Of a stretch of 41,613 nt of DNA, positions 9,608 through 34,841 are shown one piece after another. The position numbers and the translations under genes are program-made. The notes under the pieces were generated by a model that saw only the letters and a program-made list of their open reading frames with translations, had not been told where the DNA came from and ran no database searches. The number at the start of each line of letters is the position of its first letter. Positions within the stretch are counted from its first letter, which is position 1. Source of the DNA: Phycisphaerae bacterium (GTDB lineage: Bacteria; Planctomycetota; Phycisphaerae; Sedimentisphaerales; Anaerohalosphaeraceae); NCBI GenBank assembly GCA_018433925.1, contig JAHDQI010000125.1:1-41613 (forward strand). Reading direction: 5' to 3'.

Positions 9608-9660
9608 TAACACAAGAGTTTAAAGCATGTGATATATTGTTAAATTGAATTTGATATATT
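9597..9660 (+). repeat. Helically phased GATATATT direct repeats (candidate autoregulatory operators)
   Basis: CGATATATT at 9597-9605, TGATATATT at 9630-9638 and TGATATATT at 9652-9660 are spaced 33 and 22 bp apart, i.e. three and two helical turns. The first overlaps the -10 of the regulator promoter and the others lie in its leader. The same word occurs as an inverted pair at 9430-9463. Regulator autoregulation is inference; AT-rich composition makes chance matches more likely. Confidence 0.4.
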
Positions 9661-9674
9661 TTGAGGATTTTGGC

Positions 9675-10763
9675 GTGCCAACAATAATATCAAAACCAAG
9701 CCATGCAATTTCATCTGTCATTTCTCAATTAGAAGAAGATATCAAAAAACACGGCCTCAAAGCAGGCGACCGTCTGCAGCCGGTCCGTGATCTTGCCGCC
9801 CGATATGGCGTCTCTTATGTAACGATGCAAAAATCCGTCAACCTGCTTAATCACAAAGGATTGTTGGAGGTTAAGCGGGGCTCCGGTGTATTTGTAAAAG
9901 CACAAAGCGGAAACAATGGTTCTGATGAAAGGGGATTTATTTTTTACTTAATTCTCGCCGGCTATGATTGCGACATGGCTCGGTTTCCGGTCTATGCAAA
10001 GATGCTTTACGGAATTGAAAATGAAGTTGCAAATTTCGGCGGAAAGTTAGTTGTAGTCAGGGTGGCAAATGAAACTGAAGTTGAAAAAATAGACGGGGAC
10101 GCAGACGGTTATTTACTGTTCTGGAATGATGAAATGCCCACTTTAAAAGAGAGATTGCATGGAAAGCCATGCGTATGGCTCATGGGAATAGACAAACAAT
10201 GGGGGGATCATATCACCTTTAATGATTTCAGCGTCGGCAAAGTAGTGTGTGAATACTTCTCGGATAAAAAATACAGCAAGGTTGCCTACGTCGGCGCGGG
10301 GCTGGGAGCCAATCATGAACGAAAGGTAGGGTTTGAGTACTATGCCAAGCGAAGGGGATTAGACATCACTTATATGCTGGATGAAAAAGCGATTGAAAAA
10401 GGAAAGCTGGGGGATCGTTTTAACAGCACAATTATTGATCGCTGGCTGGATTGTATATTGGATCCGGCGGAGCGATATGACGCTGTTTTCGTAGAGATGG
10501 ATTCCATGGCTGTCTGGGTATACAACGCCATGGAAAGACGCGGAGTTTCCGTTGGCAAAGACATTGAGATCGTAGGCTGCAATTGCGAAGAAAGTCTTTT
10601 GTCGAGTCTTCCGAAGATGCCCACCACCGTGGATATCCATTCCGAGGAAATCGGTGCGATGGGCATTGAACATATTCTGTGGAGAAAAAGAAATCTTTCG
10701 GCAGATCGAAGAGTCATCAAGATTGAACCCTCGATCCGAGTCTTTCAGGATGATATGAAATAG
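9675..10763 (+). CDS. GntR-family transcriptional regulator with LacI-type sensor domain
   Basis: 362 residues from GTG 9675, chosen because TGAGGA sits at the right distance; a TTG at 9645 extends the frame by 10 residues but has no ribosome site. Residues about 5-75 form a GntR winged helix-turn-helix (GLKAGDRLQPVRDLAARYGVS, HKGLLEVKRGSGVFVK pattern). Residues about 85-355 resemble the LacI/periplasmic-binding fold (KVAYVGAG, ERKVGFEYYAKRRG, DAVFVEMDSMAVWVYNAME, VGCNCEE). This is the AraR-like combination, which normally binds a sugar that releases DNA. It is the first plus-strand gene before the long glycan run and probably controls it. The ligand is unknown. The promoter and phased repeats just upstream suggest self-regulation. 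Confidence 0.9.
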   Translation: MPTIISKPSHAISSVISQLEEDIKKHGLKAGDRLQPVRDLAARYGVSYVTMQKSVNLLNHKGLLEVKRGSGVFVKAQSGNNGSDERGFIFYLILAGYDCDMARFPVYAKMLYGIENEVANFGGKLVVVRVANETEVEKIDGDADGYLLFWNDEMPTLKERLHGKPCVWLMGIDKQWGDHITFNDFSVGKVVCEYFSDKKYSKVAYVGAGLGANHERKVGFEYYAKRRGLDITYMLDEKAIEKGKLGDRFNSTIIDRWLDCILDPAERYDAVFVEMDSMAVWVYNAMERRGVSVGKDIEIVGCNCEESLLSSLPKMPTTVDIHSEEIGAMGIEHILWRKRNLSADRRVIKIEPSIRVFQDDMK

Positions 10764-10843: not shown

Positions 10844-10873
10844 TTAAACATATTTTGTTTGGAGGATTGTGTT

Positions 10874-12013: not shown

Positions 12014-12057
12014 TCTTGTACAAAGAGATCAAACAATACACAGATAAGGAGAATGGC

Positions 12058-13203
12058 ATGAATAAAAAACAGATCGGGATAGGCACGTTACTGATTCCCC
12101 TGCTCATTTTTGTGGTTCAATCAAAGGCCAATGTCTTGATAGGAATTCGCGGCATTGACGGAGGCATTTATGACGGATGGCGGGTTTACAATTTCGACGG
12201 AAACATGGTTCCTGACAGCGAAGTACAGGTCACCTGGCCGGCCGTCGCCTGGAATTCAAGATACCTTGCCGGCTATTCCATTAAACCGGGATCAGGATTC
12301 TTTACGGTAACGGCCCTGTGTACCCGGGACGATCTCAGCAATCAGTTTCATTTTTTGATTAAAATGGATATCTCTAACGGAACGGTATTGTCTTCCGTTC
12401 AGGGAGACAAAAATTCCTTCAACAGCTTTTTTGGAACGTGGGCGCATTACGACGCAACCTACCTGGACGATGTGGACGGAGTGCCCGTCTGGGGATATGC
12501 CGTGACCAAAAAAGAACCTTATGAGCGCGGCAATATTGCCTGGGGTGTTCTAATGGACGGCAATATCGGCGATGCGATGGAGTTCGGGCCGTATTACGAA
12601 ACGGACCCGAATGTTACCCGGCCCTGGTTTGGCCTGGCTTACGACCCGGATACTCAGTTGGCGTATGTTTCTACAACGCCCTACGAAGATGAGTATGGGC
12701 GTGATACAATCCAAATATATTCCGTCGAATCCGAACACCTCTGGACTTTTCTGGGTGAGGTTTATGTCCCCGCCGAATGGACTGCCGCGACCGATATCGT
12801 GGCGATGTCCGTGGGCGGAGACTATAACGATGATGGAGACAAAGAGTTGTATGTCGCCGTTCAAAATCGAACAGATCCCAATTCCGTGGGGTATGCCGAG
12901 GGAAAAGATTTTTGGACAGTTCTTGACGTCGATTTCAATGGCGACGAATGGATACTGACCCAACTCAGCGATCCCTTCCTTGTGGATCTGCCAAACGGAG
13001 GAGATATTTTCGGGATCGCGCTGGATGCGAATATGCCGACCGGGCTTGCCCCCCTGTGCGGAAGCGCGGGAACCGTGTATTTATCCGGCGATGTGAACCG
13101 GGACTGTTATGTAAACCTCAAGGATTATGTTTTGATTGCTGAACAATGGTTACTGTGTACGGATCCGGCCCTGCCGGAATGTGATGTGAACTGGAAACAT
13201 TAA
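12058..13203 (+). CDS. Secreted protein with C-terminal dockerin-like tail (paralogue B)
   Basis: 381 residues from ATG 12058 (AGGAG at 12047-12051). Signal peptide MNKKQIGIG...QSKA, then NVLIGIRGIDGG, the same mature start as the gene before it. Matching blocks follow in the same order: DGW-V-N-DG, W-SRYL-GYSIKPG, DAT-L-DV-GVPVWGYAV, AYVSTT, DYNDDGDKELYVAV. The dockerin-like tail (LCGSAGTVYLSGDVNRDC, WLLCTDPALPEC) ends the protein. Tandem duplication followed by strong divergence is evident. The two genes are 44 bp apart and probably cotranscribed. Function unknown; it could bind or sense glycan at the cell surface. Confidence 0.85.
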   Translation: MNKKQIGIGTLLIPLLIFVVQSKANVLIGIRGIDGGIYDGWRVYNFDGNMVPDSEVQVTWPAVAWNSRYLAGYSIKPGSGFFTVTALCTRDDLSNQFHFLIKMDISNGTVLSSVQGDKNSFNSFFGTWAHYDATYLDDVDGVPVWGYAVTKKEPYERGNIAWGVLMDGNIGDAMEFGPYYETDPNVTRPWFGLAYDPDTQLAYVSTTPYEDEYGRDTIQIYSVESEHLWTFLGEVYVPAEWTAATDIVAMSVGGDYNDDGDKELYVAVQNRTDPNSVGYAEGKDFWTVLDVDFNGDEWILTQLSDPFLVDLPNGGDIFGIALDANMPTGLAPLCGSAGTVYLSGDVNRDCYVNLKDYVLIAEQWLLCTDPALPECDVNWKH

Positions 13204-13979: not shown

Positions 13980-14696
13980 ATGAGAATCAGAAAAGGATTT
14001 ACGCTTATCGAGTTGCTTGTAGTGATTTCAATTATCGCTTTATTGCTGTCTATCATTTTGCCTTCTCTGCGGCTGGCAAAGGAAACGAGCCGGTCTTTGG
14101 TATGCAAAACAAGATTGAAAGAAATTGGCCTGGGGCTGTATTTTTATGGCAATAATTATGACGAATGTTTCCCGTCCAATGATGTGTTGTCGGGACAGAT
14201 GAATAATCTCAACCTGGGCGGAACGACCAATGTAGCCGAATACATGTTTCCGGATCGCCTGATGACGATGGTCAATCCCTATCTGGCGGGCCTGGGCGCA
14301 TTAACCAAAGGGGGATTCATCGAAGATACCGAAATTTTTTACTGCCCCACGGAAAAGAAGGAGGACTATGACTTTGTAGCCAGAGAAAATTACAGTTCCT
14401 ACAGCTATCGCGGAACGACATCAACATGGCTGGCGTCAAACTGGTGGAATTGTTATGGAGCGGACAAGACAACCAATCGAATGCGCGCCATGGTCAGCGA
14501 TCATTTTACCCGGGACGAGGGGCCGCACTCGTTCGGAAGAATTTTTAACCTGTGGTATTCAGACGGCCACGTCGGCCAATTTGAATTTGATCAATACAAC
14601 CATCCTGAAATTGCAAATTTCTCAACGGATTTCAAACGCCAGGAGGTCTGGGAATTGATGAATCCAACAAGGCGAGGGCAAAATAATAACTGGTAA
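13980..14696 (+). CDS. Type II secretion / type IV pilin-like prepilin (pseudopilin)
   Basis: 238 residues from ATG 13980. The N-terminus MRIRKG-FTLIELLVVISII is a class III signal: short basic leader, Gly at -1, Phe at +1 and Glu at +5, then a long hydrophobic helix to about residue 30. A prepilin peptidase should cleave after Gly6. The rest is a globular domain with few Cys and a late W-YSDGHVGQFEF motif, the DG-H pattern common near the end of planctomycete pseudopilins. No other pilus or secretion genes are nearby; such orphan pseudopilins are abundant in Planctomycetota. Lying in the glycan run suggests a surface or periplasmic role with the neighbouring secreted proteins, but that is inference. 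Confidence 0.9.
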   Translation: MRIRKGFTLIELLVVISIIALLLSIILPSLRLAKETSRSLVCKTRLKEIGLGLYFYGNNYDECFPSNDVLSGQMNNLNLGGTTNVAEYMFPDRLMTMVNPYLAGLGALTKGGFIEDTEIFYCPTEKKEDYDFVARENYSSYSYRGTTSTWLASNWWNCYGADKTTNRMRAMVSDHFTRDEGPHSFGRIFNLWYSDGHVGQFEFDQYNHPEIANFSTDFKRQEVWELMNPTRRGQNNNW

Positions 14697-14824: not shown

Positions 14825-16807
14825 ATGTACGCGGTGTTAAAATGGGTACTATTGGGAGTGTTGTTTTGCGGCGGCCATCCCTATTTAAATGCGGCCGAGA
14901 CCGAACCGAACGATCCTCCTGCACCTGAAAACCGAAAGCACAATCGCCCGGCCGAATTATGGCAGTACTATATGTACGGCATGGTGGATTATTTTGCCGA
15001 ACCCGTAGCCATTGAAGCGTTGTTTGGGCCTGACCAGGACCGAAGCAAATGGCTCGTAAAGGGGCATCCGATCCATAATCCTTATAAACAATCTGAGGCG
15101 CCTGCGTTGATGCTTCAGGGAACCAGCGAGTTCATGTCCGGAAAGCCGCTGTCGATCAAAATGGAGAAGGTGCACGGCAGAACGGTTCGAATTTATTTCT
15201 GGGAAAAAGGAATTGAGGCAGGCCGGGAAGAATCGCTGAATAGCTGGGGCGATCCGCCGGACGTATATATCTATATTAAAAATGCAGAAAATGAGACCGT
15301 GTCATTTAAGTTCCTGCATCTGGGCACGCAGGGGACCTTTCCCTGGCATTGCTATTACGGGGAAACATTTGTGCCGAAAACAGCCGCAGGGATTTACTTG
15401 AAATTTCTCAACCGGCACGGGGACAGGGTATTTTTTTCGAATCTGTCATGGGAGATTGTAACAAAAGAGAATGCCCTGGATGAGTTGAATGAAAAACAAG
15501 ATCCGGTTACAGGAAGTCTTGCCTATAATCCGTATTATGACGATTATAATTTTTCACTGATTTATGGCAGGGCCGACCGTTATAAATGGAACTTCTGGAA
15601 GGGTGTCAACGGCGGCCTGAAGGGCAACCAATACGATATCCGAACCCGGGCGGGTTTGCGGAAGTATTTTACTGAAAAAGTGCTGATCGACGCCGATCAC
15701 ATGAATCACGGGGTCATGTATCTTGCGGATCGTTACAACTGGGGCAAACAGCGAAACGTGCTTCCCGACGGCATGGAAGACGGCTGGCTGGAATGCCTTG
15801 CGGAACTTGTTATTGGAGCCCAGGACCCTGACACCGGCTATTGGGGAACCAAAGGATTTCCATTGAGCATGGGCATGACCTTTCATATAACAGAAGGGTT
15901 ATTTGACTACTACGGCGTAGAACACCCCGATCGCCCGAGCCGGGAACGAAACAGCATCCGTCATATGGGGATCAAAGAAATTCCTCTGGCGGATAAGATT
16001 GTCGAAACAACCCTGAACATGCAGGCCGGTTATATTGACGAGGACGGCGTTGAGCGAAAAGCCGGCTGGCCCAGGCACGCATACAATTTTACGGAGAATC
16101 CAAACAGCGAAAAACAGCGAGGCTCGCTTATTGTGTGTGCCAATGCAATGTGGATGATGCGCCGGATGGAACGATTTGTTCAGCCGCCTCTCCAACAAAA
16201 AATATATGATTCATCCAAAGCAGCCATTCGATACATACTGCGCAAATGCGTTCTTGACAGCGGTCTCTATCTTCAGTCAGATACGGACAGGGAGATTACA
16301 AGCGGCGAGTATTTTATGGAATGGATATTGGACCATACAAATTATCTTGAGCGGAAGATAGTTGAGAACATTCCCGAGCCGGAAATGACCGCCAGAAAAC
16401 AGAATGACGTTTTGATTATCGAGTGGGGCAATCCCCTGCCGGAACAGAACTGTGTGCGGGTCTATGCCGCCTCGAAACACAGGAAAGGAGCTGATTTGAA
16501 CGAATCAGACCTTGTTGGGATAATCCATCGAACGGGGCACAGGATTTATGAAATGGATCCGCTGCTCGTGGCCAGAAAAATAAGCATCGCTTCAAAGGAG
16601 CACTGGGGAAAGGGATTTGAAAAACAGGAGGGTTACCTGGGCTGGAAAATCAACGTTTTAACGCCGCAGAATCTTGCCGTTGTAAAGGATGCGGCTCCTT
16701 TAGAGATTCCTATTGAAGACATGGAAAATAAGAAAATATATGTCTCGGCTGCGAATTGGTACGGAGAAGAATCCAACCCCGTATTGCTGTATAATGAATC
16801 ATTATAA
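14825..16807 (+). CDS. Secreted alpha-toroid protein, candidate polysaccharide-active enzyme (paralogue 1)
   Basis: 660 residues from ATG 14825; GTG 14834 is a possible alternative because AGGA ends only one or two bases before the ATG. Signal peptide ends near LNA-AETEP. From about 35 to 210 there is a beta-rich domain (RPAELWQYYMYG). From about 230 to 540 there is a helical region with toroid-type motifs: HGVMYLADRYNWG, DPDTGYWGTKG, FHITEGLFDYYG, and a late E-W-ILDHTNYLERKI. From about 545 a fibronectin-III-like segment (WGNPLPEQNCVRVYAAS, ESDLVGIIHRTG) leads to the end. The same order occurs in 17596-20247. No known family is recognised; the fold suggests a lyase or hydrolase, but catalytic residues cannot be assigned. 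Probably exported to the periplasm or surface. Confidence 0.82.
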   Translation: MYAVLKWVLLGVLFCGGHPYLNAAETEPNDPPAPENRKHNRPAELWQYYMYGMVDYFAEPVAIEALFGPDQDRSKWLVKGHPIHNPYKQSEAPALMLQGTSEFMSGKPLSIKMEKVHGRTVRIYFWEKGIEAGREESLNSWGDPPDVYIYIKNAENETVSFKFLHLGTQGTFPWHCYYGETFVPKTAAGIYLKFLNRHGDRVFFSNLSWEIVTKENALDELNEKQDPVTGSLAYNPYYDDYNFSLIYGRADRYKWNFWKGVNGGLKGNQYDIRTRAGLRKYFTEKVLIDADHMNHGVMYLADRYNWGKQRNVLPDGMEDGWLECLAELVIGAQDPDTGYWGTKGFPLSMGMTFHITEGLFDYYGVEHPDRPSRERNSIRHMGIKEIPLADKIVETTLNMQAGYIDEDGVERKAGWPRHAYNFTENPNSEKQRGSLIVCANAMWMMRRMERFVQPPLQQKIYDSSKAAIRYILRKCVLDSGLYLQSDTDREITSGEYFMEWILDHTNYLERKIVENIPEPEMTARKQNDVLIIEWGNPLPEQNCVRVYAASKHRKGADLNESDLVGIIHRTGHRIYEMDPLLVARKISIASKEHWGKGFEKQEGYLGWKINVLTPQNLAVVKDAAPLEIPIEDMENKKIYVSAANWYGEESNPVLLYNESL

Positions 16808-16819
16808 AAGGATATGATT

Positions 16820-17554
16820 GTGAAAAAGCCGGTTTATCTGTTACTGCTTTCGTTTGCGTTTTCCACGTCTCAGGCAGTCTATCTGGAATGGAATCCCGGC
16901 GGCGAGGGCATGATTGCCGCAACCGCCTCAAGCTACTTCACATCCGCCAATATCGGAGCGTTGCTTCCAGAGTACACCGTCAATGGGGCCGGCATGAATC
17001 CCGATGATACACATCAATGCACCTGGCAGCCGATCCACTGGGTGGCAGACAACGGCGACAGCCAGTCCTGCTGGATAAAGTTTGAGTTTGACAAGGCCTA
17101 TCGTCTCGCCGCCCTCTATGTATGGAATTACAACCATACGTTTTCTTCCGGCAACGAGCTCGATCGCGGAATGCGAAAGGTAAGAATCACTTACTCTCAG
17201 GACGATGTGAATTATTCAGAGCTGGGTGTTTATGAATTTGCGCAGGCGACCGGGGAAAATAATTACGCCTGCAATACCGTAGTGGATTTCGAAGGAAACA
17301 ATGCGAAGTATGTAACGCTTGCTGTGGTGTATGATCCCGTCAATCCGATGCACAACTGGGGGGATCCGTCCTATACCGGCCTGAGTGAAATTCGCTTCAC
17401 CCGATTGAGTGATCCTGTTTGCGGAGATCCAGGCACCGTCTATCTGGCGGGCGATCTGAATAAGAATTGCTATATAGACCTTGAGGATCTTGTACTTCTT
17501 CTTTCCAACTGGCTGAAGTGTTCGGATCCTGCCAACATCGAATGTGACTTGTAA
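16820..17554 (+). CDS. Secreted discoidin-like protein with dockerin-like tail
   Basis: 244 residues from GTG 16820, preferred because AAAAGGA ends seven bases before it; ATG 16814 is only one base from that site. The ribosome site overlaps the stop of the gene before. Signal peptide VKKPVYLLLLSFAFSTSQA. Residues about 18-195 closely match the module of 13222-13890 (LEWNPGGEG, TASSYFTS-NIGALLPEYTV, ELDRGMRKVRITYSQD, HNWGDPSYTGLSEIRF). The tail is dockerin-like (CGDPGTVYLAGDLNKNC, WLKCSDPANIEC) in place of PEP-CTERM. It lies between the two toroid genes and is likely a non-catalytic glycan-binding partner for them. Confidence 0.86.
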   Translation: MKKPVYLLLLSFAFSTSQAVYLEWNPGGEGMIAATASSYFTSANIGALLPEYTVNGAGMNPDDTHQCTWQPIHWVADNGDSQSCWIKFEFDKAYRLAALYVWNYNHTFSSGNELDRGMRKVRITYSQDDVNYSELGVYEFAQATGENNYACNTVVDFEGNNAKYVTLAVVYDPVNPMHNWGDPSYTGLSEIRFTRLSDPVCGDPGTVYLAGDLNKNCYIDLEDLVLLLSNWLKCSDPANIECDL

Positions 17555-17595
17555 GGGTCTATGAAAAGTCGTGGCCAAGAAAAGGAATAGGAATC

Positions 17596-20247
17596 ATGCG
17601 TTATGAGAGCGGTTATAAATGGTTTTGGGTTGGGATAGTTTCGATGGTTGTCTTGACCTCCTTTGGCAAGGCATCTTGTCACGACAACAAAGATTCCCGG
17701 CCGGCGGACTTGTGGCGCTATTATCAGCACGGCATAGCGGATTTGTGCGCGGTTCCCGTCGATATGATTTCCATGTTCGGCGCCGGTCAGAATCCGGCGA
17801 ACTGGCTGAATCCGGCGAATTTAATCAATACTCCTTATGTCGAATCCGATGAAGCTGCGTTTGAGATATCCGGCTACAAAAGCTCGTTTCCTTTCGGCAA
17901 CCCGATGGATATTGACATGAACGCCGCACGAGGCAATACAATTCGTATTTATGCCTGGGCCATGCAGAACTCAGGCGCCGCCGTGATCACGTTTACGGTA
18001 AAAAACGCCGGCGGAAGCACCTTGCTAAGCGATAGCATTACATGGCTTTCGACCAACTGCGAGGCGGCCGCCACAAGGCCCTGGTACTGTGATTATAAGG
18101 AGTTGACGATTCCCGGCGATGCGGCAGGGATATACGTGACCTTGCATAACAATCCTACAGGGGCTTCCGGCCGCAACGGAACCTCCGGGTTTTCCCGGTT
18201 TTCATGGGAACTCGTGACGTCTGTTAATACGTATACGGACAATCAGAAACAGGATCCGTGGACGGGAGCCAAGTATCTCCCTGACGGCAGCCTGGATACC
18301 CCCCTGTATCGATTGTTCGGACAGGAGCACCTTCGATGGGGCGGCACCAATTATACACAGTATCCCTGGAATTTCTGGCGAGGCCCTGAGATCGATTGTC
18401 CCGGCGTAACGCACGATATGACAACAAAGCAGGGGATTGAAGACTGGTATCTTACGGTAACGCCTTACAATACCGAAGAGCGAAATCACGGTGTGATGTA
18501 CCTGGCAAGCAGGTATCAGTACGGGCTCTTATATGGCACACTGCCGCCGATGGAACCGGGCTGGGCCAGTCACATTGCAGACGTGATCCTCGCCGATCAG
18601 CATCCCGTAACCGGCTATTGGGGCAATGCCATTTATCCTTCCGGCAGTATGGCGATCACCTTTCATTTCCTTGAGGGGCTTTTCAATTATTACAGTCATC
18701 CTCGCAGCGACCGGGCGGATAGTACCAATCCGATGCGTTATTGGGGACCCGGTTATGAAAATGTCCCGCGGCCGGTTGATCTAATAAATACGACTCATTC
18801 CCTGCAGTCAACCTATGTCAATGACGAAGGCCAGAGTGTCTATGCCGCCTGGCCCCGCAAAACCTATCACTGGACCACCAATCCGAATAGCTCGACTTCA
18901 GACGGCCTAAGAGATAAGTGCTGGCTGCCCGCTACAGCCAACGCCATACAGATCCTCAGCCAGGGATCTCGATGGCTTAGTGAGCCGCTGAAAACAGAAA
19001 ATTATAACCGCATCAAATCAGGGGTCCACTACGCCCTGAAATACAATGTCCTGCCGGATGGAACCTGGCAGGACTCCGATGCCAGCGGCGGAACTTCCGC
19101 AATGTGGGCGGCGGAGTGGATAATCGAATATTCGGATTATCTGGAACGCCGGATCGTCCCGGAAATCGCCGCCCCGGATGCCGGCTTGTCTTATGAACAG
19201 GGGCATTGGTCTGTGAAATGGAATGAACCGTATGGGGAACAGAACTCACTGCGTATCTATTCAGTCGCCGCCGGCTCTGATGCCGCTTCGTTGAATGAGT
19301 CAAATCTCGTGGGGATAATCCAGCGGTATGGGGACCGGGCTCATAATATGGATCCCTTGCTGACGGTCAAAATCAAGATGAACATGAGCGGTCATAATTA
19401 CATGGATTGGAAAATCGGGATGGTAAACTGGCCGCTTGCCTATACGGACAACGGAGCGGACATTCATATGCCTTCCTCCTCTGTTGAAGACAGGGATATT
19501 TATGTTACGGCCGCGACCTGGTACGGGGAAGAGTCGATCCCTGTGCTTCTCGAGAAAGAGGGCATCCAGGGATCTTCTCTCGAATGGAATCCGGGCGGCG
19601 AGGGGATGATCGCTGCCGTCGCATCGAGCGTTTATTCAAGCAGTATCGGACCTCTTCTTCCCGACTATGTTGCCAACGGAGCCGGCATGAATGATAGGAA
19701 CACCCATAGAAATGACTGGGAGCCGATCCACTGGCTGTGCAGTTTTGGCGACAGTACCGCTGCATGGATCCAATTTGAATTTGACCAGGTGTACAATCTG
19801 GAAACAATGCAGGTTTGGAATTACAATCATGTTTACACAGGCGGCTCCGCGACAAACCGGGGAATGCGGACGGTAAGGATTACCTATTCTAACGACGGCA
19901 GCAATTATTCAGAACTGGGAGTTTTTGAATTCGCACAGGCCACAGGGGAATCTGATTATGCCTCCAATACGGAGGTTAATTTCACAGGAGTACCCGCCAA
20001 ATATGTCAAGCTTGCCGTTGCCGTAATCGATCCCGAAAATCCGCAGCACAACTGGGGCGATCCGATCTTTACCGGTTTGAGCGAAGTGAGATTCAGGCGC
20101 TCCGCTGTCTGCGGGGATCCGGGTACGGTCTATCTGCCGGGGGATCTGAATGAGGATTGTTATGTCGATTTCAAGGACCTTGCGATATTTGCCTCACACT
20201 GGCTTACATGCACAGATCCCGCCAATCGTGACTGCGAACCCTATTGA
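17596..20247 (+). CDS. Large secreted toroid protein fused to discoidin-like and dockerin-like modules (paralogue 2)
   Basis: 883 residues from ATG 17596, with a signal peptide of about 28 residues. Order: beta-rich domain (DSRPADLWRYYQHG, about 35-210), toroid domain (HGVMYLASRYQYG, HPVTGYWGNAIYPSG, FHFLEGLFNYYS, EWIIEYSDYLERRI; about 210-530), Fn3-like segment (WNEPYGEQNSLRIYSVA; about 535-650), discoidin-like module (LEWNPGGEG; about 661-835), and dockerin-like tail (CGDPGTVYLPGDLNEDC, WLTCTDP; about 838-883). In effect it is paralogue 1 (14825-16807) joined to the gene at 16820-17554. This supports a catalytic region plus binding module plus surface tag. No named enzyme family recognised; substrate unknown. 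Confidence 0.84.
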   Translation: MRYESGYKWFWVGIVSMVVLTSFGKASCHDNKDSRPADLWRYYQHGIADLCAVPVDMISMFGAGQNPANWLNPANLINTPYVESDEAAFEISGYKSSFPFGNPMDIDMNAARGNTIRIYAWAMQNSGAAVITFTVKNAGGSTLLSDSITWLSTNCEAAATRPWYCDYKELTIPGDAAGIYVTLHNNPTGASGRNGTSGFSRFSWELVTSVNTYTDNQKQDPWTGAKYLPDGSLDTPLYRLFGQEHLRWGGTNYTQYPWNFWRGPEIDCPGVTHDMTTKQGIEDWYLTVTPYNTEERNHGVMYLASRYQYGLLYGTLPPMEPGWASHIADVILADQHPVTGYWGNAIYPSGSMAITFHFLEGLFNYYSHPRSDRADSTNPMRYWGPGYENVPRPVDLINTTHSLQSTYVNDEGQSVYAAWPRKTYHWTTNPNSSTSDGLRDKCWLPATANAIQILSQGSRWLSEPLKTENYNRIKSGVHYALKYNVLPDGTWQDSDASGGTSAMWAAEWIIEYSDYLERRIVPEIAAPDAGLSYEQGHWSVKWNEPYGEQNSLRIYSVAAGSDAASLNESNLVGIIQRYGDRAHNMDPLLTVKIKMNMSGHNYMDWKIGMVNWPLAYTDNGADIHMPSSSVEDRDIYVTAATWYGEESIPVLLEKEGIQGSSLEWNPGGEGMIAAVASSVYSSSIGPLLPDYVANGAGMNDRNTHRNDWEPIHWLCSFGDSTAAWIQFEFDQVYNLETMQVWNYNHVYTGGSATNRGMRTVRITYSNDGSNYSELGVFEFAQATGESDYASNTEVNFTGVPAKYVKLAVAVIDPENPQHNWGDPIFTGLSEVRFRRSAVCGDPGTVYLPGDLNEDCYVDFKDLAIFASHWLTCTDPANRDCEPY

Positions 20248-20290
20248 ACTGATGAGAATTAACCGTTGAAGCAGCGAGTCAGGAGACAAA

Positions 20291-22075
20291 ATGAAAAACA
20301 AACAGGATTTTATTAACAAACTGATCGGCGATATGACAATTGAACAGAAAGTCGGACAATGCCTTGTGATCGGTTTCGTCGGTACGGTAGTAACCCCTGA
20401 AATTCTCAGAAGAATCAGAAATTATTACCCTGCCGGGATTCGAGCAGGCCTTACCTTCCGCGTGAAAACAGCCCTGCATGATCCCACCGCCGTAGGGGGA
20501 ACAAAGTTCAGCGATCGGATTTTGCGAAAACCCGTAAGAACCATAAAAGATTATCGACCGGGGTTTTCCGTACCCCACTGTACGAACGAAGAATACTGTG
20601 CCTTTCTGAATACATTGAAAAAAGAAGCGTTAGATAACGGGCTGGGGATTCCGCTTCATATTACACTGGACATGGAAGGAGATCTCAGTGCGGATTATTC
20701 ACGAGGCGGCATCCATTATTTCCCAAGTGCCATGGGGCTTAGCAGATCAGGAGACATTCAGATCGTTCAGGATGTTGCGTGGGCAACCGCCCGCCAGGTG
20801 GTCCCGCTTGGTTTCAACTGGATCCACTCTCCGGTACTGGATGTGAATACCAATCCATACAATCCGGAGATTGGCACCCGCAGTTACAGCGAGGATTTCG
20901 AAGAGGTTTTGCAGTGTGCCGGCGCAGCGCTGAAAGGATATCAGAAAGGCGGCCTGATTGCCACGGGCAAGCACTTCCCGGGCAGAGGCCCCTCGGGGAC
21001 CGATGCCCATGACGGACTGCCTGTCATTGATGCGGATCGAAAAACCATGAACAAACATCTGGGACCGTACAGAAAGCTCATTGAGGCCGGGCTCCCGGCC
21101 ATCATGACGGCTCATACGGTCTATCCGGCACTGGATTCCTCCGGCCTGCCTGCAACCCTCTCAAAAACGATTCTTACGGATATTCTGAAGAAGGAAATGG
21201 GATTCCAGGGCGTGATCACGACCGATGCCATTGAAATGGGAGCCATTCTCGAAATGCTTGAGCTGCCGCAGGCGTGCGTCGAGGCCCTGAACGCCGGTGC
21301 GGATCTTGTGCTGCTGCGCGATGAAGGATCGATTATTGACGAAGTGTTTGCCGGAATGGTCGAGGCCGTACGCAGCAACAAACTGTCCGAAGATCGGCTG
21401 GATGACGCCATTGCAAGAACGCTTTCCGTGAAATATGATTACGGGTTATTTGAAAACGGAAATCTCCGTGATGAATCCGCGGCCGGTGAAGGAATAAACG
21501 ACCCTGCGGTGGAAATCATTACACGCCAGGCGGCGTCCAGGTCTGTCTGCATTCTTAAGGATGAAGAGAATATCCTGCCTTTGTCGCCTGCCCGCAGGAT
21601 TCTGCTTATCGAGCAGATGAATCCCCTGCACATCATGACCAACAGCCAGGCATGTCATCCGGGCATTCTCTGGGAACAGATGCTCCGTTATTCGACGAAC
21701 GTCGGGATGGTTGAGACCTCGCTTCAGTTTGAAGAGAGTGATCAGCAGCGAGTGATGGACCGAATCGAGGAAGCAGAGACTTTGGTCATCACGAGTTATT
21801 ATTATCGGAATCAGAAAAAAAACGACGCTTTCGTTCGAACGCTGCATAAACTCGGCAAACCCATTGTTGTGGTGACGAATACCCATTATCCGGTCATCGT
21901 ACATCCTGAATACAAAACGGTTATTACCACATACGGCGTCGGTCCTGAGTCCATGGAAGCCGTAGCGGCAACCTTGTTTGGGGCAGATCTAACGATCCGA
22001 AAGGGTCTTTATCGCAGCCTTTCGCAAGCTGAATCGGGCAGTTTTGAAACCGTGTCCGGCGGAAAGCAGAAATAA
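20291..22075 (+). CDS. Glycoside hydrolase family 3 beta-N-acetylhexosaminidase-like enzyme (NagZ type)
   Basis: 594 residues from ATG 20291 (CAGGAG upstream). GH3 barrel motifs include KHFPGRG near 226, TDAHDGLP near 238 (the Asp-His pair used by NagZ-type enzymes as acid/base) and GVITTDAIEMGA near 309-318 (Asp nucleophile). After about 380 comes a Rossmann-like C-terminal domain (SVCILKDEENILPLSPARRILLIE style). There is no signal peptide, so it should act in the cytoplasm on imported oligosaccharides, removing beta-linked N-acetylhexosamine or another sugar; GH3 specificity cannot be fixed from sequence. The canonical KHFPGHG has Arg for the second His, a modest variant. Confidence 0.92.
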   Translation: MKNKQDFINKLIGDMTIEQKVGQCLVIGFVGTVVTPEILRRIRNYYPAGIRAGLTFRVKTALHDPTAVGGTKFSDRILRKPVRTIKDYRPGFSVPHCTNEEYCAFLNTLKKEALDNGLGIPLHITLDMEGDLSADYSRGGIHYFPSAMGLSRSGDIQIVQDVAWATARQVVPLGFNWIHSPVLDVNTNPYNPEIGTRSYSEDFEEVLQCAGAALKGYQKGGLIATGKHFPGRGPSGTDAHDGLPVIDADRKTMNKHLGPYRKLIEAGLPAIMTAHTVYPALDSSGLPATLSKTILTDILKKEMGFQGVITTDAIEMGAILEMLELPQACVEALNAGADLVLLRDEGSIIDEVFAGMVEAVRSNKLSEDRLDDAIARTLSVKYDYGLFENGNLRDESAAGEGINDPAVEIITRQAASRSVCILKDEENILPLSPARRILLIEQMNPLHIMTNSQACHPGILWEQMLRYSTNVGMVETSLQFEESDQQRVMDRIEEAETLVITSYYYRNQKKNDAFVRTLHKLGKPIVVVTNTHYPVIVHPEYKTVITTYGVGPESMEAVAATLFGADLTIRKGLYRSLSQAESGSFETVSGGKQK

Positions 22076-22124
22076 GGCCCCCCATGAAATCACAGACCGA
22101 TAAGATTGGAAAACCAAGGGAACC

Positions 22125-24116
22125 ATGGCTTTTACTGTAACAGATCCTGACTTTAAACACAGTCCGTTTACCGGAATGACACGAAAACATTGGCTGGAAA
22201 CCGCAACGTTCCTGCTCGACGGCGTCTTTATGCACATTCCGAATTTTGATGCGCCGATTATTTTGCCGAGGCAGCATACGATTTCGTACCCCCAGCCGGA
22301 TTCGCCGAAATGGCAGTTCCAGGCAGAACAATACGAAGGCCTGGCACGTACCTTCATGGCCGCTTCGCACCTGATCCGGGAGTCTCCCGATCTTTCCATT
22401 CAGGGATATAATCTCAGAGAGTACTACGCCAATCAGATTCTCCGTGCCGTGAACCCCGAATCCGAGGGCTACCTCGGCAGTCTGTCCGGCCTTCTCCGGG
22501 AACACGGGCTGCGTCATTTTCAGCATACGGTTGAAGGCGCCGCCCTGGTCATCGGGTTAATGAATTGCCGGTCCGAAATATGGAATGCTTATACTCGAAA
22601 CGAACAAAATCAAGTCGCTGAATACATCTCTGATGCCGCTCACAACCGAACTCTATCGCACAACTGGCGATTTTTCAATGTTCTCATGTTGACATTTCTG
22701 AAACGGAATGAGTATCCCATTGATGAAGCCGCCCTCAGGGATCATCTTCAGCATCTTATGTCTTATTATGCCGGCAACGGATGGTATCGAGACCATTCCA
22801 GCTTTGATTATTACAATGCCTGGGCTTTTCAGTTTTATGGCCCGATCTGGTGCTCGTGGTATGGATATGAACACGAGCCCCGAATTGCGCAGATCATTGA
22901 AAAAAGACACCATGAATTCACGGAAACCTACCCTCTTATGTTCAGCAGGCAGGGGCATCAACTGATGTGGGGCCGAAGTATTATATATCGCTGTGCGGCC
23001 GCTTCATCACTGGGGGCCGCTTTTCTGCTGAACAATACCCGCATGAGCCCCGGCTGGGCACGGCGGATCGCCTCCGGAAACCTCCTGCAGTTTTTGACGC
23101 GCGAGGATGTTTTTTTCAAACACGTCCCCTGCCTCGGTTATTATGGGCTCTTTGAGCCGCTTGTCCAGTTTTACAGTTGTTCGGCCAGTCCCTTTTGGAT
23201 GTCGAAAATATACACCGCCCTGTCTCTGCCTGCGGACTCTCCTTTCTGGACAGAAACAGAAGAGACCGGAGTATGGCGGGACCTGAAGGATCAACAAAAA
23301 ACCATAACCCTGCCGGGCCCGGGGCTGACCCTGACGGTGCACGGCAAAACAGGCACCTCGGAATTAAGGCCCGGCAAGGTGGCAAACAACCTGCCCTACA
23401 ACAATCGTTTGGCCTATAACAGTTCATTTCTATGGGAAAGCGATTCCCCCGAAGGGGCAACGGCAATGACATATTCAATAAAACAACTCGGGAAAGACAC
23501 GGAATTCGCGTTCCCGTTAACGATCAGTTTCTGCAAAGAAGAAGCGGGAGTGATTTACAGACAGCTAAACCTCGGCCTCGGCGACACGTACTTTGGACCG
23601 GCCCGGATCGATCTGGCCGACATCATAATCCCCGGGGGGGTCATCCGAATTGACAGGGCCAGAATAGCCGTTCGTCATGAAATTCATTTGGGACACTTCG
23701 GTCTTCCGCATAGTAACGGACAGACACCGCGAATCCAGGAGACGGCCCGGAACGGCGCCCGGGCGATCATCGCATCGATTTCCAATAGACAGCTCGCCCT
23801 GGTTGCCTGCCGTGGATGGGACCGCCTCGGAGCCATGGAACATACCGGAAAAAATGCGGAGGCCGAAAAAAGCACGGTTCTTTATGCCGAACGTATACGG
23901 AATAAGGATTATTCCGGAATGGAGCTTTTTGTCACCCTGATGCTTCACCGTACCGACAATGAGGACTTTTCGGACAGCGAATTGTTTCCGATCAGGAAAC
24001 TTACGTATAGGGACTGGACCCGGACCGATCAGCCCTGCGGAGTAGAGCTGACGTTAACCGACGGTCAGGTTTATCAAATCGATTTTGGCAACATTGAAGG
24101 CCAGGTTAGTCAATAG
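22125..24116 (+). CDS. DUF2264-family protein, probable cytoplasmic glycosidase
   Basis: 663 residues from ATG 22125; AAGGGA lies about four bases upstream. No signal peptide. Family markers of DUF2264 are visible: NWRFFNVLMLTFL near 186, GWYRDHSSFDYYNAWAFQFYG around 224 onward, HEFTETYPLMFSRQGHQLMWGRS near 275, and a terminal beta-sandwich from about 390. The N-terminal part is predicted as an (alpha/alpha)-barrel. I recall some DUF2264 proteins being placed in CAZy GH154 as beta-glucuronidases, but I cannot confirm this here. It lies between GH3 and a UroD-like gene and probably trims an imported, possibly uronic-acid-containing, oligosaccharide. Confidence 0.85.
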   Translation: MAFTVTDPDFKHSPFTGMTRKHWLETATFLLDGVFMHIPNFDAPIILPRQHTISYPQPDSPKWQFQAEQYEGLARTFMAASHLIRESPDLSIQGYNLREYYANQILRAVNPESEGYLGSLSGLLREHGLRHFQHTVEGAALVIGLMNCRSEIWNAYTRNEQNQVAEYISDAAHNRTLSHNWRFFNVLMLTFLKRNEYPIDEAALRDHLQHLMSYYAGNGWYRDHSSFDYYNAWAFQFYGPIWCSWYGYEHEPRIAQIIEKRHHEFTETYPLMFSRQGHQLMWGRSIIYRCAAASSLGAAFLLNNTRMSPGWARRIASGNLLQFLTREDVFFKHVPCLGYYGLFEPLVQFYSCSASPFWMSKIYTALSLPADSPFWTETEETGVWRDLKDQQKTITLPGPGLTLTVHGKTGTSELRPGKVANNLPYNNRLAYNSSFLWESDSPEGATAMTYSIKQLGKDTEFAFPLTISFCKEEAGVIYRQLNLGLGDTYFGPARIDLADIIIPGGVIRIDRARIAVRHEIHLGHFGLPHSNGQTPRIQETARNGARAIIASISNRQLALVACRGWDRLGAMEHTGKNAEAEKSTVLYAERIRNKDYSGMELFVTLMLHRTDNEDFSDSELFPIRKLTYRDWTRTDQPCGVELTLTDGQVYQIDFGNIEGQVSQ

Positions 24117-24125
24117 ACAAAAACC

Positions 24126-25265
24126 ATGACATCCAAAGAAAGAGTACAAGCGATTTTATCCAAAAAGAGGCCCGACAGAACACCGATCGGTTTTTTCGCA
24201 ATCGATTCTGACACCGCTTCCAGGGTATTGGGCAGGGAAACATATTGGAGAGCCAAGGCCAAAACACAAATCGCCTTCTGGGAGGGTCGCCGAGATGAAG
24301 TCGTTGAAAGCCTGATTGCCGACGGGATCGAATTATATAAAAAACTGGACTTGATTGACATCATCCCCGTCTGCTGCATGGCAGCCGGAGTCGTGCCGCC
24401 GCGTAATTATACCCCCAAACCGCCCCGCAAAATAGCAGAGGACACCTGGGAAGACAGGGAGGGACGTATTTATAAATACTCTTCCGTCACGAAGGATATT
24501 ACCATTGTTCATGATCCTCAGATGTGGACACGCGAACACAAGGTCAGTGACAGGATATGGGAGGGCAGGATACAGGCGCCGGATGAATCCATATTTGAGG
24601 TGGTTGACGCGGTTATAGCGGCCTTCAAAGAGGATCGTTTTGTGCTGGGACCCTGCGGGCATCTGGATGCCTGGCTTTTGCTCGGCGGGATGGAAAGAGG
24701 TTTGATGGAAATCGCGATGCGGCCCGGGGAAATCCGAAGGATCTATGAAACCCTGGCTGAAAAGGCCATTGCGGAGGATGCTTTTTATGTCCGGGAGGGA
24801 CAGGACGGTGTTCTCGAGGGGACCGATCTGGCAAGTACGGCCGGGCCAATGATCAATCCCCTGACCTACCGTGAACTGTTTCTCACTTCCTTTCAAAAAC
24901 GCATCGCAATGCTGAAGAACAGGGGACAGCGTTTTTTTAAGCACGCCTGTGGAAATAACTGGAAATTACTGGACCTGTTTACGGAACTCGGGATTGACTG
25001 CTATCAGTCAATCCAGACATCGGCCGGAATGGATCTGGCCAGGGTCCACGAATTGTATTCGGACAAGTTTGTAATCTGGGGCGGTGTACAGGTAGAACAC
25101 CTCATCGAAGGAACGGTTGACGATATACGCCGCGAGGTCGATTTTGTAATGAGAGAAATCGCTCCGTCCGGACGGTTCATTCTTGGAACGAGTCATTCTG
25201 TGGCGGTGGGGACGAAATATGAAAACTTTATGGCATTGCTCGATCAGTTCAGCAAATGGATTTAA
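24126..25265 (+). CDS. Uroporphyrinogen decarboxylase-like / MtaA-type methyltransferase family protein
   Basis: 379 residues from ATG 24126, nine bases after the previous stop. Belongs to the URO-D superfamily: TSKERVQAILSKKRPDRTPIGF start, HACGNN near 273, IQTSAGMDLARV near 299, WGGVQVEH, then FILGTSHSVAVGT. The His-x-Cys pair resembles the zinc site of corrinoid methyltransferases such as MtaA/CmuA more than true HemE, which needs a conserved N-terminal Arg cluster I do not see. True heme synthesis would be odd in this context. A role in transferring a methyl group, for example from a methylated sugar, is a hypothesis; no corrinoid partner protein is in the window. Confidence 0.86.
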   Translation: MTSKERVQAILSKKRPDRTPIGFFAIDSDTASRVLGRETYWRAKAKTQIAFWEGRRDEVVESLIADGIELYKKLDLIDIIPVCCMAAGVVPPRNYTPKPPRKIAEDTWEDREGRIYKYSSVTKDITIVHDPQMWTREHKVSDRIWEGRIQAPDESIFEVVDAVIAAFKEDRFVLGPCGHLDAWLLLGGMERGLMEIAMRPGEIRRIYETLAEKAIAEDAFYVREGQDGVLEGTDLASTAGPMINPLTYRELFLTSFQKRIAMLKNRGQRFFKHACGNNWKLLDLFTELGIDCYQSIQTSAGMDLARVHELYSDKFVIWGGVQVEHLIEGTVDDIRREVDFVMREIAPSGRFILGTSHSVAVGTKYENFMALLDQFSKWI

Positions 25266-25296
25266 TTACGCTTCTGTTGTTTGATAAGGAGGGTAC

Positions 25297-27486
25297 ATGT
25301 TCGGCCTTCATATTGCAGATATTGTGGTCATTCTGGTCTATTTTCTCATTGTCATAGGCATTGGCTTTTGGTCAATGAGGCGTATTAACAATCAGGAGGA
25401 CTATTTTCTCGCCGGCAGGCGCTTTGGGAAATTCGTTCAGACATTTGCCGCTTTCGGACAGGCGACCAGTACGGAAAGCGCCACGGTGATCTCGACAACA
25501 ACATTTAAAAACGGCGCGGCGGGCATCTGGAGCGGTCTCAATATGTTGTTTGCGACCCCTGTGTATTGGATAACAAGCACCTGGTACAGGCGAATGAGAG
25601 TGCTTACCCTGGCGGATTACTTTGAGGAACGATATCAGTCCAAATCCCTGGCCGGCATCTATGCGGCCGTCCAAAGCATCTTTTTTATGTTGGTTCTTTC
25701 TCTTTCTTTTAACGCCATTGGAAAAACCGTTTTCGTCCTTACCCCCAAAACGCAGGATCAGTTAACCGCCTCTGAACAGCAGGAATACAAGCGGGCCGTC
25801 GAGAAGGAAAAACTGGAAAACAGGGATTACGCCTCCTTGTCGCCGCAGGAGGCAGACAGACTGATGCAGCTCCGAATCGAGAAGCCCAGGAGTGTCTTCA
25901 GTCACATCAACATGAATATCCTCGTCTTCCTGATCTGCCTGGTCGTGTTGATCTATGCCGTTGCGGGAGGTCTTGAAGCGGCTTTTTTAACCGATACCCT
26001 GCAGGGAGTAGGGATTATTCTGATCTCGGTGATCTTAATCCCTTTTGCACTGATCAGGACCAATCAGGTCTATGGCGGAAGCGGGATCCTGGAACCGTTC
26101 AGAATACTTCATGCCAAACTGCCGGAATCATTTTTTGATATCTTTGGGTCCCCTGCGAATATTGACTTTACCTGGTATTACGTAGTCGCGGTCATGCTGA
26201 TGGTTACCCTGAATGTGTTGCAGCAGGCCAATCAGCTTACGGCAACCGGTTCGGCCAAAGGAGAGTACGAAGCGAGGTTTGGATTTACACTGGGTTTGTA
26301 TATCAAGCGTATCTGCACTGTATTCTGGGGGTTGGTGGCATTATTCGCCGTCCTTCTTTACAGCGATCAAATAACCGATCCGGATATGGTGTGGGGATAT
26401 GCTTCGAAAGATTTGCTGGGTTCGCTGAATATCGGCCTTGTCGGACTCATGCTGGCCTGCATGCTCGCCGCCTTAATGTCCACGGCCGACTGCCTGATGA
26501 TTACGGCCTCCAGTCTAATCACCCGAAACGTGTACCGGCCCTTGTATCCGGATAAACAGGAGAATCATTATGTGATGGCAGGCCGTATTTCAGGCGCGTT
26601 TGTAATCATTGGCGGAGCGCTTTTGGCGCTTTACTTTGACAGCCTGCTTCAGCAGATGAAACTGACATGGGAGTTCGGCATCATTTTTGCCGCTCCTTTT
26701 CTGCTTGGCGTGGTATGGAGAAAAGCCAACAAAAGAGCGGCGTGGGCAACGGTGGCCGCATCGCTTATGATTTTCTTTGCCCTGCCTTTCTTTCTTCCGA
26801 TATTCCTGCCGACCTTGAAAACCAATTCATACCTTCTGGGAACCACCGGCAGTTATGCCATTGAAAGAGAATATACCGCGCATGAAATAGACGTTAGAGA
26901 AAGGCAGGAAATGATCGACCGGTGGGAAACGCGCCACGCCCTGGGGCAGGCGAAAAGCCAGCGGCCTGCGCCATTGCTGGAAGGGCAGAAATTTGTAAAA
27001 CAATATGCCCAGCCGGAAAAATCGATTTTTTGGACCGAGGGAATCCGGATCAACCGCGACGATAAATTGGAAGGCAGAGGCCTGCTGAACCTGGAGCTGT
27101 TGGTGTGCAACGGGCTGGGCTTTGATCTGTCAAACAATCCGTACGCCCTCAATGAGACAATCCGCATAGGAATACGTGTATCGGTTCCCTTTCTCCTCTT
27201 GATACTGCTGAGTCTGATAACGAGACCGGATGACAAAACAGCGCTCGACAGGTTTTTTGTGAAAATGAAAACCCGGGTCAATCCTGATCGGAAAAAAGAT
27301 GAGGAGGAAATACAGCATTCATACAACAATCCCCGTCGGTTTGATCATCATAAGCTGTTTCCAAATTCGGACTGGGAATTCTGCCAATGGGACAAAGTTG
27401 ACACCGTTGGATTTCTAATATCGCTCATGGTGGCGTTCGGCATTATCGGCTTTTTTTATTGGATCGTATCAATTGGGAGGCCGTAA
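25297..27486 (+). CDS. Sodium:solute symporter (SSS) family transporter, long form
   Basis: 729 residues from ATG 25297, with a perfect AAGGAGG upstream. The SSS core has YFLAGRRFGKFVQTFAAFGQATSTESA near residues 36-62, repeated hydrophobic segments, and a family-type LMLACMLAALMSTADCLMITAS segment near 384-405. It is longer than the usual 500-550 because of a charged insertion at about 151-203 (TASEQQEYKRAVEKEKLENR type) and a large soluble block at about 505-615, plus a hydrophilic region before the last helix (KKDEEEIQHSYNN). Likely imports sugar, uronate or oligosaccharide with sodium across the inner membrane. It is the only transporter in the window, between the cytoplasmic enzymes and a secreted protein. 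Confidence 0.93.
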   Translation: MFGLHIADIVVILVYFLIVIGIGFWSMRRINNQEDYFLAGRRFGKFVQTFAAFGQATSTESATVISTTTFKNGAAGIWSGLNMLFATPVYWITSTWYRRMRVLTLADYFEERYQSKSLAGIYAAVQSIFFMLVLSLSFNAIGKTVFVLTPKTQDQLTASEQQEYKRAVEKEKLENRDYASLSPQEADRLMQLRIEKPRSVFSHINMNILVFLICLVVLIYAVAGGLEAAFLTDTLQGVGIILISVILIPFALIRTNQVYGGSGILEPFRILHAKLPESFFDIFGSPANIDFTWYYVVAVMLMVTLNVLQQANQLTATGSAKGEYEARFGFTLGLYIKRICTVFWGLVALFAVLLYSDQITDPDMVWGYASKDLLGSLNIGLVGLMLACMLAALMSTADCLMITASSLITRNVYRPLYPDKQENHYVMAGRISGAFVIIGGALLALYFDSLLQQMKLTWEFGIIFAAPFLLGVVWRKANKRAAWATVAASLMIFFALPFFLPIFLPTLKTNSYLLGTTGSYAIEREYTAHEIDVRERQEMIDRWETRHALGQAKSQRPAPLLEGQKFVKQYAQPEKSIFWTEGIRINRDDKLEGRGLLNLELLVCNGLGFDLSNNPYALNETIRIGIRVSVPFLLLILLSLITRPDDKTALDRFFVKMKTRVNPDRKKDEEEIQHSYNNPRRFDHHKLFPNSDWEFCQWDKVDTVGFLISLMVAFGIIGFFYWIVSIGRP

Positions 27487-27552
27487 ATAAGCGTACTCTG
27501 GGCATCACGAAACAGGGTCGGCTCACAATTCGCTTGAAAGGACAGGAATCAG

Positions 27553-28689
27553 ATGAATAGAAAATCAACCCGTATTTTCATGGCGGCAGTCGTATTCCTA
27601 ACGGCGGTCTCCTTTGCAAAACCGGATTATCACTTGGCGGAACTGAGAGGCGGCTGTTTCAAGGACAAGTACGTCGATTTATCCGTTATTCGCCGGGAGG
27701 TGATGAATCGATTGATCGCCCTCGAAGTTGAGGGAGGACCGTATGGAGCGTATCGACTGAAGACAAACGGGCCCGCAGAGCTCTATGCCACCTGTGACGC
27801 GGCCCTGATACGGACGATCATGGGCGAAGAGTTCAAAGAATCGCTGACGGAGGCCCAGCGGCAGCAGTGGATTGACTATATCAATTCATTTGCGGAACCC
27901 GATGGAGTGTATCAGGGCGGCCGGCATGCCAAACTGCATCGCAATGGAATGGTGATTGGCGCACTGGGACCCCTGGGGGGCAGGCAGAAATATCCGGTTC
28001 GACTCTACGATGAGTTCAGCCGGGCCGACCGAGTCGCCCTTTGGCTGGAGACAAAAGTGGACTGGGAAAATTTCTGGCCCGGCTCCCATCTGTTTTGGGG
28101 AGGAATGCATTGTTTCAGCAAGAGCAAAGGATGTACGGAGCAGTGGCTCCGCAATGTCTTCGAATGGCTGGATCACAATCTTGATCCGGACACAGGTTTC
28201 TGGCGAAAAGGCGTAACGAGCTCCCCTCACAACGGGATTGGAGGCGGGGCCCACATCTGGCCTATTTATCAGGAGCATGGACATGCTTTTCCGTATCCGG
28301 AACGCGCCATAGACTCGATCCTGAAATTACAGAGGGAGGACGGGTTCTGGATCAGCGAAAAACGCAGCAGACTCGCGGATAAAGAGCATACTTATTATCT
28401 CGAACTGGATGCCTTGTATGGTCTTAAATATTTCGGAACACTGGCCCCCTGTTATCGAAACGAGGATATCGCAGAGGCCGTTCGGAAAAGCGGAAAGGCA
28501 ATTATGAGCGGGTATTATAAATTTATGAACAGCGATCCGGACCTCCATCAGGTTCTCGGCCTGGTCGGAACCATTGGACTTTTCCAGCAGCATGATCCGG
28601 TGACCTATCGGGATACTGTCCGGTGGACGGATATCTTTTCCGATCCTCGCCTTTATCAGACGGACAAAGTCGAGGTACGGCCCGATTAA
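27553..28689 (+). CDS. Secreted alpha-toroid protein of unknown specificity
   Basis: 378 residues from ATG 27553. Signal peptide MNRKSTRIFMAAVVFLTAVSFA, then a helical protein with squalene-cyclase/toroid-style repeats: DPDTGFWRKGV near 214, HNGIGGGAHIWPIYQEHGH, AIDSILKLQREDGFW, DALYGLKYFGTLAPCYR. The DPxTGxW motif is shared with the two larger toroid proteins upstream, but it lacks their accessory domains and dockerin tails. Secreted or periplasmic. A lyase, hydrolase or epimerase are all possible; I cannot assign active-site residues. Confidence 0.8.
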   Translation: MNRKSTRIFMAAVVFLTAVSFAKPDYHLAELRGGCFKDKYVDLSVIRREVMNRLIALEVEGGPYGAYRLKTNGPAELYATCDAALIRTIMGEEFKESLTEAQRQQWIDYINSFAEPDGVYQGGRHAKLHRNGMVIGALGPLGGRQKYPVRLYDEFSRADRVALWLETKVDWENFWPGSHLFWGGMHCFSKSKGCTEQWLRNVFEWLDHNLDPDTGFWRKGVTSSPHNGIGGGAHIWPIYQEHGHAFPYPERAIDSILKLQREDGFWISEKRSRLADKEHTYYLELDALYGLKYFGTLAPCYRNEDIAEAVRKSGKAIMSGYYKFMNSDPDLHQVLGLVGTIGLFQQHDPVTYRDTVRWTDIFSDPRLYQTDKVEVRPD

Positions 28690-31597: not shown

Positions 31598-31612
31598 GGC
31601 CACTCAAAACAA

Positions 31613-32569: not shown

Positions 32570-32626
32570 TTCTGAATCACCTCTTCCGCATTACGGATCC
32601 ACAGATCGGATGGATTCCAGGGCCCC

Positions 32627-34840: not shown

Positions 34841-34841
34841 C

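Follow-up and report, generated by a model that had tools for sequence, protein, structure and literature searches.

The window analysed is the whole 41,613-nucleotide stretch of contig JAHDQI010000125.1 from a Phycisphaerae bacterium (GCA_018433925.1), to which all coordinates refer, the whole genome amounting to 3.76 Mb. It includes three open reading frames (ORFs), here called tor1, tor2 and tor3, found at 14825, 17596 and 27553, where an earlier interpretation made from the DNA letters (the sequence-only reading) had placed three secreted toroid proteins, possibly a new family of carbohydrate-active enzymes (CAZymes). The results given here support well that they form a new superfamily absent from the catalogues, one whose role in this locus probably concerns carbohydrates.

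14825..16807, + strand: tor1, predicted secreted protein of 660 amino acids (aa), from ORF, BLASTP, AlphaFold2 model and hydropathy; signal peptide at about aa 1-24, carbohydrate-binding module (CBM)-like beta-sandwich at about 44-215, alpha/alpha toroid at about 212-518 and Fn3-like C-terminal domain at about 521-657
15458..16378, + strand: toroid domain of tor1, modelled and searched alone
15824..15844, + strand: QW-like motif DPDTGYW of tor1, at aa 334
17596..20247, + strand: tor2, predicted secreted tor1 homologue of 883 aa with an extra C-terminal discoidin (F5/8 type C) domain and a dockerin-like tail
18601..18621, + strand: motif HPVTGYW of tor2, at aa 336
19690..20019, + strand: discoidin (F5_F8_type_C) domain of tor2, from the Pfam/NCBIfam scan
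27553..28689, + strand: tor3, predicted secreted single-domain toroid of 378 aa, remote homologue of the tor1/2 toroid by profile comparison
28183..28203, + strand: motif DPDTGFW of tor3, at aa 211

The motif DPxTGxW or HPVTGYW, by which the three proteins had been grouped, was confirmed and is confined to them genome-wide. The expression [DH]PxTG[YF]W occurs exactly once in each protein, and its DNA form gave three matches in the whole genome, at 15824, 18601 and 28183, the backwards control giving 0; shuffled copies of tor1, tor2 and tor3 contained the motif in 4 of 60,000 cases. The N-termini of all three carry a hydrophobic, signal-peptide-like segment, as judged by hydropathy and not by SignalP or another dedicated predictor, which is consistent with the secretion that had been proposed.

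BLASTP aligned tor1 and tor2 over their full length (34% identity over 655 aa), and this alignment, together with the three domains of the tor1 model, agrees with the claim that both proteins share an N-terminal beta domain, a toroid and an Fn3-like part. The tree joins tor1 to one Hydrogenedentota and one Phycisphaerae sequence (support 95/92) and leaves tor2 outside this group, so that the two do not appear to be recent duplicates. No significant relation of tor3 to tor1 or tor2 was found by BLASTP, which aligned the motif alone or less. When alignments of 13 members each for the tor1/2 toroid and for tor3 were compared as profiles (hhalign), a probability of 94% (P 1.3e-7) was obtained, the alignment running through the motif, the next helix (TFH / GAHI) and the following hairpin. 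The reversed tor3 profile gave 0.6% and block-shuffled profiles 2-25%; the toroid profiles of DUF2264, PL10 and GH88 reached at most 20% against the tor1/2 or tor3 family, and toroid and shuffled controls gave P of 5e-4 or worse versus 1.3e-7. With sub-alignments of either clade the local signal stayed at 83-94%. On this profile evidence tor3 is a remote homologue of the tor1/2 toroid, and a homologous toroid bearing [DH]PxTG[YF]W is found in all three proteins. The three-way likeness holds for the toroid only, and through a link visible with profiles and not with BLASTP.

The sequence-only reading had matched none of the proteins to a named glycoside hydrolase (GH) or polysaccharide lyase (PL) family, and the searches of Pfam, NCBIfam and PDB sequences gave the same result. 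Against Pfam-A and NCBIfam, tor1 matched no family at all, tor2 discoidin-type families only, none of them on the toroid, and tor3 nothing significant (Prenyltrans 11.8 bits versus a gathering score of 26.5); the 13 members each of the tor1/2 and tor3 families added against Pfam only weak Prenyltrans matches, in 5 of the 13 tor3 members (best E 0.014). Among PDB sequences, searched with phmmer and with profiles, there was no match to the toroid parts, the best E values of 0.23 to 1.8 all belonging to unrelated proteins. Neither PL10 (PF09492; hhalign 9.8% with tor1/2, 20% with tor3) nor GH88/GH105 (PF07470; 2.4-3.3%) gave a Pfam match, the DUF2264/GH154 profile remained below 1% against tor1/2 or tor3, and PL8, PL12, PL15, PL17, PL21 and GH127 showed no sequence match to the toroid parts, the structure search with the toroid model being middling throughout. 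The literature search found nothing on DUF2264 by name, on PF10022 as a Pfam family or on planctomycete toroid lyases.

The AlphaFold2 model of tor1, built with 13 sequences (mean predicted local distance difference test score, pLDDT, 90.6; predicted template modelling score, pTM, 0.88), has a helical toroid preceded by a CBM-like beta-sandwich and followed by an Fn3-like domain, in accordance with the N-terminal beta domain, helical toroid region and Fn3-like segment expected. Fold matches of the N-terminal sandwich, at Z about 9 to 10 where tabulated, include CBM16, CBM22 and CBM61, a module that binds porphyran and the one with which a PL8 lyase binds hyaluronan; since toxin and phage-fibre sandwiches are also among the matches, the list informs on the fold and not on the ligand. 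The search with full-length tor1 was dominated by the beta-sandwich, and the toroid was therefore refolded and searched alone (pLDDT 83.8). The best PDB matches were protein prenyltransferase beta subunits (RabGGTase beta, Z 11.0, root-mean-square deviation (rmsd) 4.0 over 171 residues), followed at Z 9 to 10 by PL10 pectate lyases, cellobiose 2-epimerase and GH105 YteR, and with GH76 and GH78 also among the middling matches, all these Z values lying in a range that may mean a common arrangement only. PL8, PL12, PL15 and GH127 were not among the matches listed, an absence which excludes nothing.

Each of the known toroids is like the tor proteins in part. The prenyltransferase beta subunits, together with the squalene-hopene cyclases, offer the closest toroid geometry and a QW-like Q-x-P-x-T-G-x-W motif, but no significant sequence match. 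PL10 pectate lyases also have a helical toroid, a middling match to the tor1 toroid model (Z 9.7-9.9), but with an rmsd of 4.4-7.6 A, 6-8% identity and a profile probability of at most 20%; the GH88/GH105 unsaturated uronyl hydrolases have one too (YteR, Z 9.2), but at a profile probability of about 3% or less. The toroid uronate lyases (PL8, PL12, PL15, PL17, PL21, PL35 and others) are likewise secreted helical toroids joined to beta domains with conserved toroid His, Tyr and Arg, whereas no sequence relation of the tor proteins to any solved member was seen; these lyases usually have a C-terminal antiparallel beta-sheet domain, and tor1 and tor2 have instead the CBM-like domain before the toroid and the Fn3-like domain after it. 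The comparison with named families that had been suggested gave no clear sequence match and, for PL10, GH105 and the epimerases, structural matches of middling strength.

Conservation was studied in 15 tor1/2 sequences, eight of which form the clade of tor1 and tor2 (clade A), compared with a Lentisphaerae clade (clade B). In clade A (n=8) the residues H295, Y299, Y339, H354, Y362, D369, R370 and Y420 (tor1 numbering) are invariant, whereas in the Lentisphaerae clade H295, Y299, Y339, H354, Y362 and Y420 are mostly replaced and D369, E509 and the tryptophans are kept; all 15 sequences have D369 and E509 in common. In the tor3 family D82, R103, H125, H129, H179, D211, H234 and D286 are invariant, and the profile alignments place H354 of tor1 close to one of these, H234. 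The His/Tyr/Arg/Asp set of clade A, which may line the toroid cavity, would fit an active or binding site lost in the Lentisphaerae clade, and the pattern lends weak support to a possible His/Tyr catalysis as in toroid lyases. The Lentisphaerae clade, having mostly lost the candidate residues, provides a natural negative control.

Relatives span Planctomycetota, Hydrogenedentota and Lentisphaerae/Verrucomicrobia. Those of tor1 and tor2 are rare, occurring in 2 of 392 phylum genomes by single-sequence search and in 5 of 397 class genomes by alignment search, the source genome being counted each time; a single-protein scan of the genome contig collection found nothing, and the alignment scan gave 12 loci, with Hydrogenedentota, Lentisphaerae and Verrucomicrobia among them. 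Relatives of tor3 occur in 11 of 392 phylum genomes, the source genome included; two carry an N-terminal concanavalin-like domain, and some lie near AraC regulators and sugar enzymes. All planctomycete relative loci that were examined have a pseudopilin gene upstream of the one for the toroid, in most cases next to a sugar-sensing regulator of the LacI or GntR type, and three Phycisphaerae loci (L018, L019 and L026) show a near-constant module of LacI regulator, pseudopilin, DUF1961 and toroid. Only nine DUF1559 matches were reported in the whole source genome, so the pairing of pseudopilin and toroid is unlikely to arise by chance from abundance. The literature mention of DUF1961 that was found is unrelated. 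In G352 (CP087563.1; L010/L012) the toroid gene spans the ends of the deposited sequence, its two parts being out of frame by one base, probably a circularisation artefact.

The genes which surround tor1, tor2 and tor3 in the window were assigned as follows.

9645..10763, + strand: GntR regulator with a sugar-binding Peripla_BP_3 sensor domain
13980..14696, + strand: pseudopilin with a DUF1559-like region, directly upstream of tor1
16814..17554, + strand: separate discoidin and dockerin-like protein, predicted secreted, with its own signal peptide and 64% identity to the tor2 tail
20291..22075, + strand: GH3 protein, N-acetylglucosaminidase/NagZ-like, with a KHFPG..D.H signature and without a clear signal peptide
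22125..24116, + strand: DUF2264 protein related to GH154
24126..25265, + strand: URO-D / MtaA-CmuA-like protein
25297..27486, + strand: sodium:solute symporter (SSF)

The family assignments of the GH3, DUF2264 and symporter genes uphold the carbohydrate-enzyme surroundings that had been described. The DUF2264 protein (22125) is homologous to GH154 enzymes (E 4.9e-14 to 9o4u) and keeps 7 of the 8 mapped active-site residues of BcGDH (N177, W178, F181, Y229, R285, Y289 and Y354), N176 being His; an E-x3-R motif may match E74/R78. The protein is a candidate glucuronate dehydratase. Although encoded in the same locus, it shows no profile relation to tor1/2 or tor3; its family is likewise one of helical toroids. 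The GH3 protein (20291) has N-acetylglucosaminidases as its nearest relatives, and other parts of the genome contain four strong matches to GH88/105. GH154 enzymes were reported as beta-D-glucuronate dehydratases that prime terminal glucuronic acid for GH88 (PMC12269599). With one neighbour related to GH154 (DUF2264) and another resembling N-acetylglucosaminidases (GH3), the glycan substrate may contain uronic acid and N-acetylhexosamine, and these two neighbours narrow the candidate substrates.

The tor proteins are good candidates for undescribed polysaccharide-cutting enzymes, and the endo-acting depolymerase role assigned to them by the sequence-only reading is plausible. As members of an undescribed helical-toroid superfamily they would have an extracellular, carbohydrate-active role in this locus, in the first place as depolymerases, an explanation considered slightly less likely than not. 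The pathway that we infer, from secretion, catalysis and lyase chemistry to substrate and order of steps, would begin with the beta-sandwich of tor1 and tor2 and the discoidin domain of tor2 holding the glycan for cleavage in the toroid cavity, among the conserved His, Tyr, Arg and Asp of this clade, most plausibly by beta-elimination beside a uronic acid as in other toroid lyases. Once the symporter had imported the products, two cytoplasmic reactions would follow, removal of N-acetylhexosamine by the GH3 and dehydration of terminal glucuronate by the DUF2264 protein, the dehydrated residue then being open to release by a GH88/105 enzyme whose gene is elsewhere in the genome. A more specific version, with tor1/tor2 and tor3 as two related new families of secreted polysaccharide-cleaving toroids, of prenyltransferase-like QW-motif ancestry and acting on a glycan of uronic acid and N-acetylhexosamine, is tentative and somewhat doubtful. 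If the tor proteins are enzymes, they would represent two related CAZyme families, unnamed in current annotation, in polysaccharide-degrading planctomycetes and their relatives.

Several observations weigh against this interpretation. Carbohydrate enzymes share the list of closest toroid folds with protein prenyltransferases and complement thioester domains, several tor3 relatives apparently have no signal peptide, and the catalytic residues are candidates only. GH3, DUF2264 and symporter genes were not found beside the other toroid loci examined, and the Lentisphaerae relatives adjoin leuC/leuD (several of them following genes of this type) or pseudopilin/dxr-like genes, not CAZymes. With some Lentisphaerae relatives next to housekeeping genes (leuC/leuD), and with the candidate active-site residues mostly gone from this clade, the superfamily is not uniformly a CAZyme family. 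The sequence-only reading is supported in part, by the absence of the toroid parts from family libraries, the helical toroid fold with a CBM-like domain and the carbohydrate-enzyme neighbours.

The tor proteins could also be non-catalytic glycan binders, secreted or exposed on the cell surface, which capture or present a polysaccharide that is cut by an enzyme encoded elsewhere in the genome. The CBM-like fold of the tor1 N-terminal domain, the discoidin domain of tor2, the separate discoidin protein between tor1 and tor2 and the known depolymerases elsewhere in the genome, such as PL10, would all suit such a role, which is nevertheless rather unlikely: the His/Tyr/Arg/Asp constellation in the clade A toroid, mostly lost in clade B, and the several invariant His and Asp that tor3 keeps are what would sooner be expected in an enzyme than in a binding platform. 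Cleavage by hydrolysis, with the tor proteins as glycoside hydrolases of the GH88/105/76/127 type and the acid/base drawn from D369, D486 or E509 in tor1 and D211/D286 in tor3, appears unlikely. It would agree with the invariance of D369 and E509 in the tor1/2 sequences and of D211 and D286 in the tor3 family, and with the presence of GH105 YteR, GH76 and GH78 among the middling structure matches; however, D369 and E509 are kept also in the Lentisphaerae clade, which is without the His/Tyr set, and may be structural, and no GH family was matched by sequence in Pfam or the PDB.

The best structure matches of the toroid (prenyltransferase beta subunits, Z 11 at best), the weak Prenyltrans matches in the tor3 family, the pseudopilin as constant neighbour and the housekeeping genes beside some relatives suggest, in turn, a toroid of the prenyltransferase/terpenoid-cyclase kind with some other exported role linked to the pseudopilin, such as cell-envelope assembly or protein modification. 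Those structure matches are middling, however, and the Prenyltrans matches weak, while the CBM-like domain, the sugar-sensing regulators and the GH3, DUF2264 and symporter genes indicate glycans; this explanation is regarded as very improbable.

The ORF at 16814, separated from tor1 by one in-frame TAA, was considered as a broken-off end of tor1 and rejected, because it carries a signal peptide of its own and because 13207 is a comparable discoidin gene that likewise stands alone. The statement that no other secreted enzyme is present was too strong, as 10859, 11989, 13207 and 16814 are also secreted-looking, with no enzyme domain recognised, and a beta-helix-like protein is encoded at 38944-41517.

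The dockerin-like tail of tor2 was not flagged by Pfam and may be a tag for sorting or attachment that is common to several proteins; this cysteine-containing tail, GDLNEDCYVDFKDLAIFASHWL, occurs at 20098-20244 of the window and at about 25 other places in the genome, in many large ORFs. The ORFs 10859-12013 and 11989-13203 are adjoining secreted-looking paralogues which start with NVLIGIRGIDG, bear a dockerin-like tail and have no Pfam match. On the minus strand, 30340-38815 holds a sugar catabolism cluster composed of an FGGY kinase, a fucose-isomerase-like protein, a class II aldolase, DUF4432 and a PfkB kinase, accompanied by a plus-strand PocR/AraC regulator. Within 30340-31603, also on the minus strand, the C-terminal domain of a mannitol dehydrogenase (30340-30987) overlaps a second ORF (30917-31603) in a different frame, apparently one gene split by a frameshift or an assembly error. 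The beta-helix-like protein at 38944-41517 (minus strand; 857 aa) ends in a dockerin-like segment, gave BACON-like and disaggregatase-related matches and could be a further extracellular polysaccharide-active protein.

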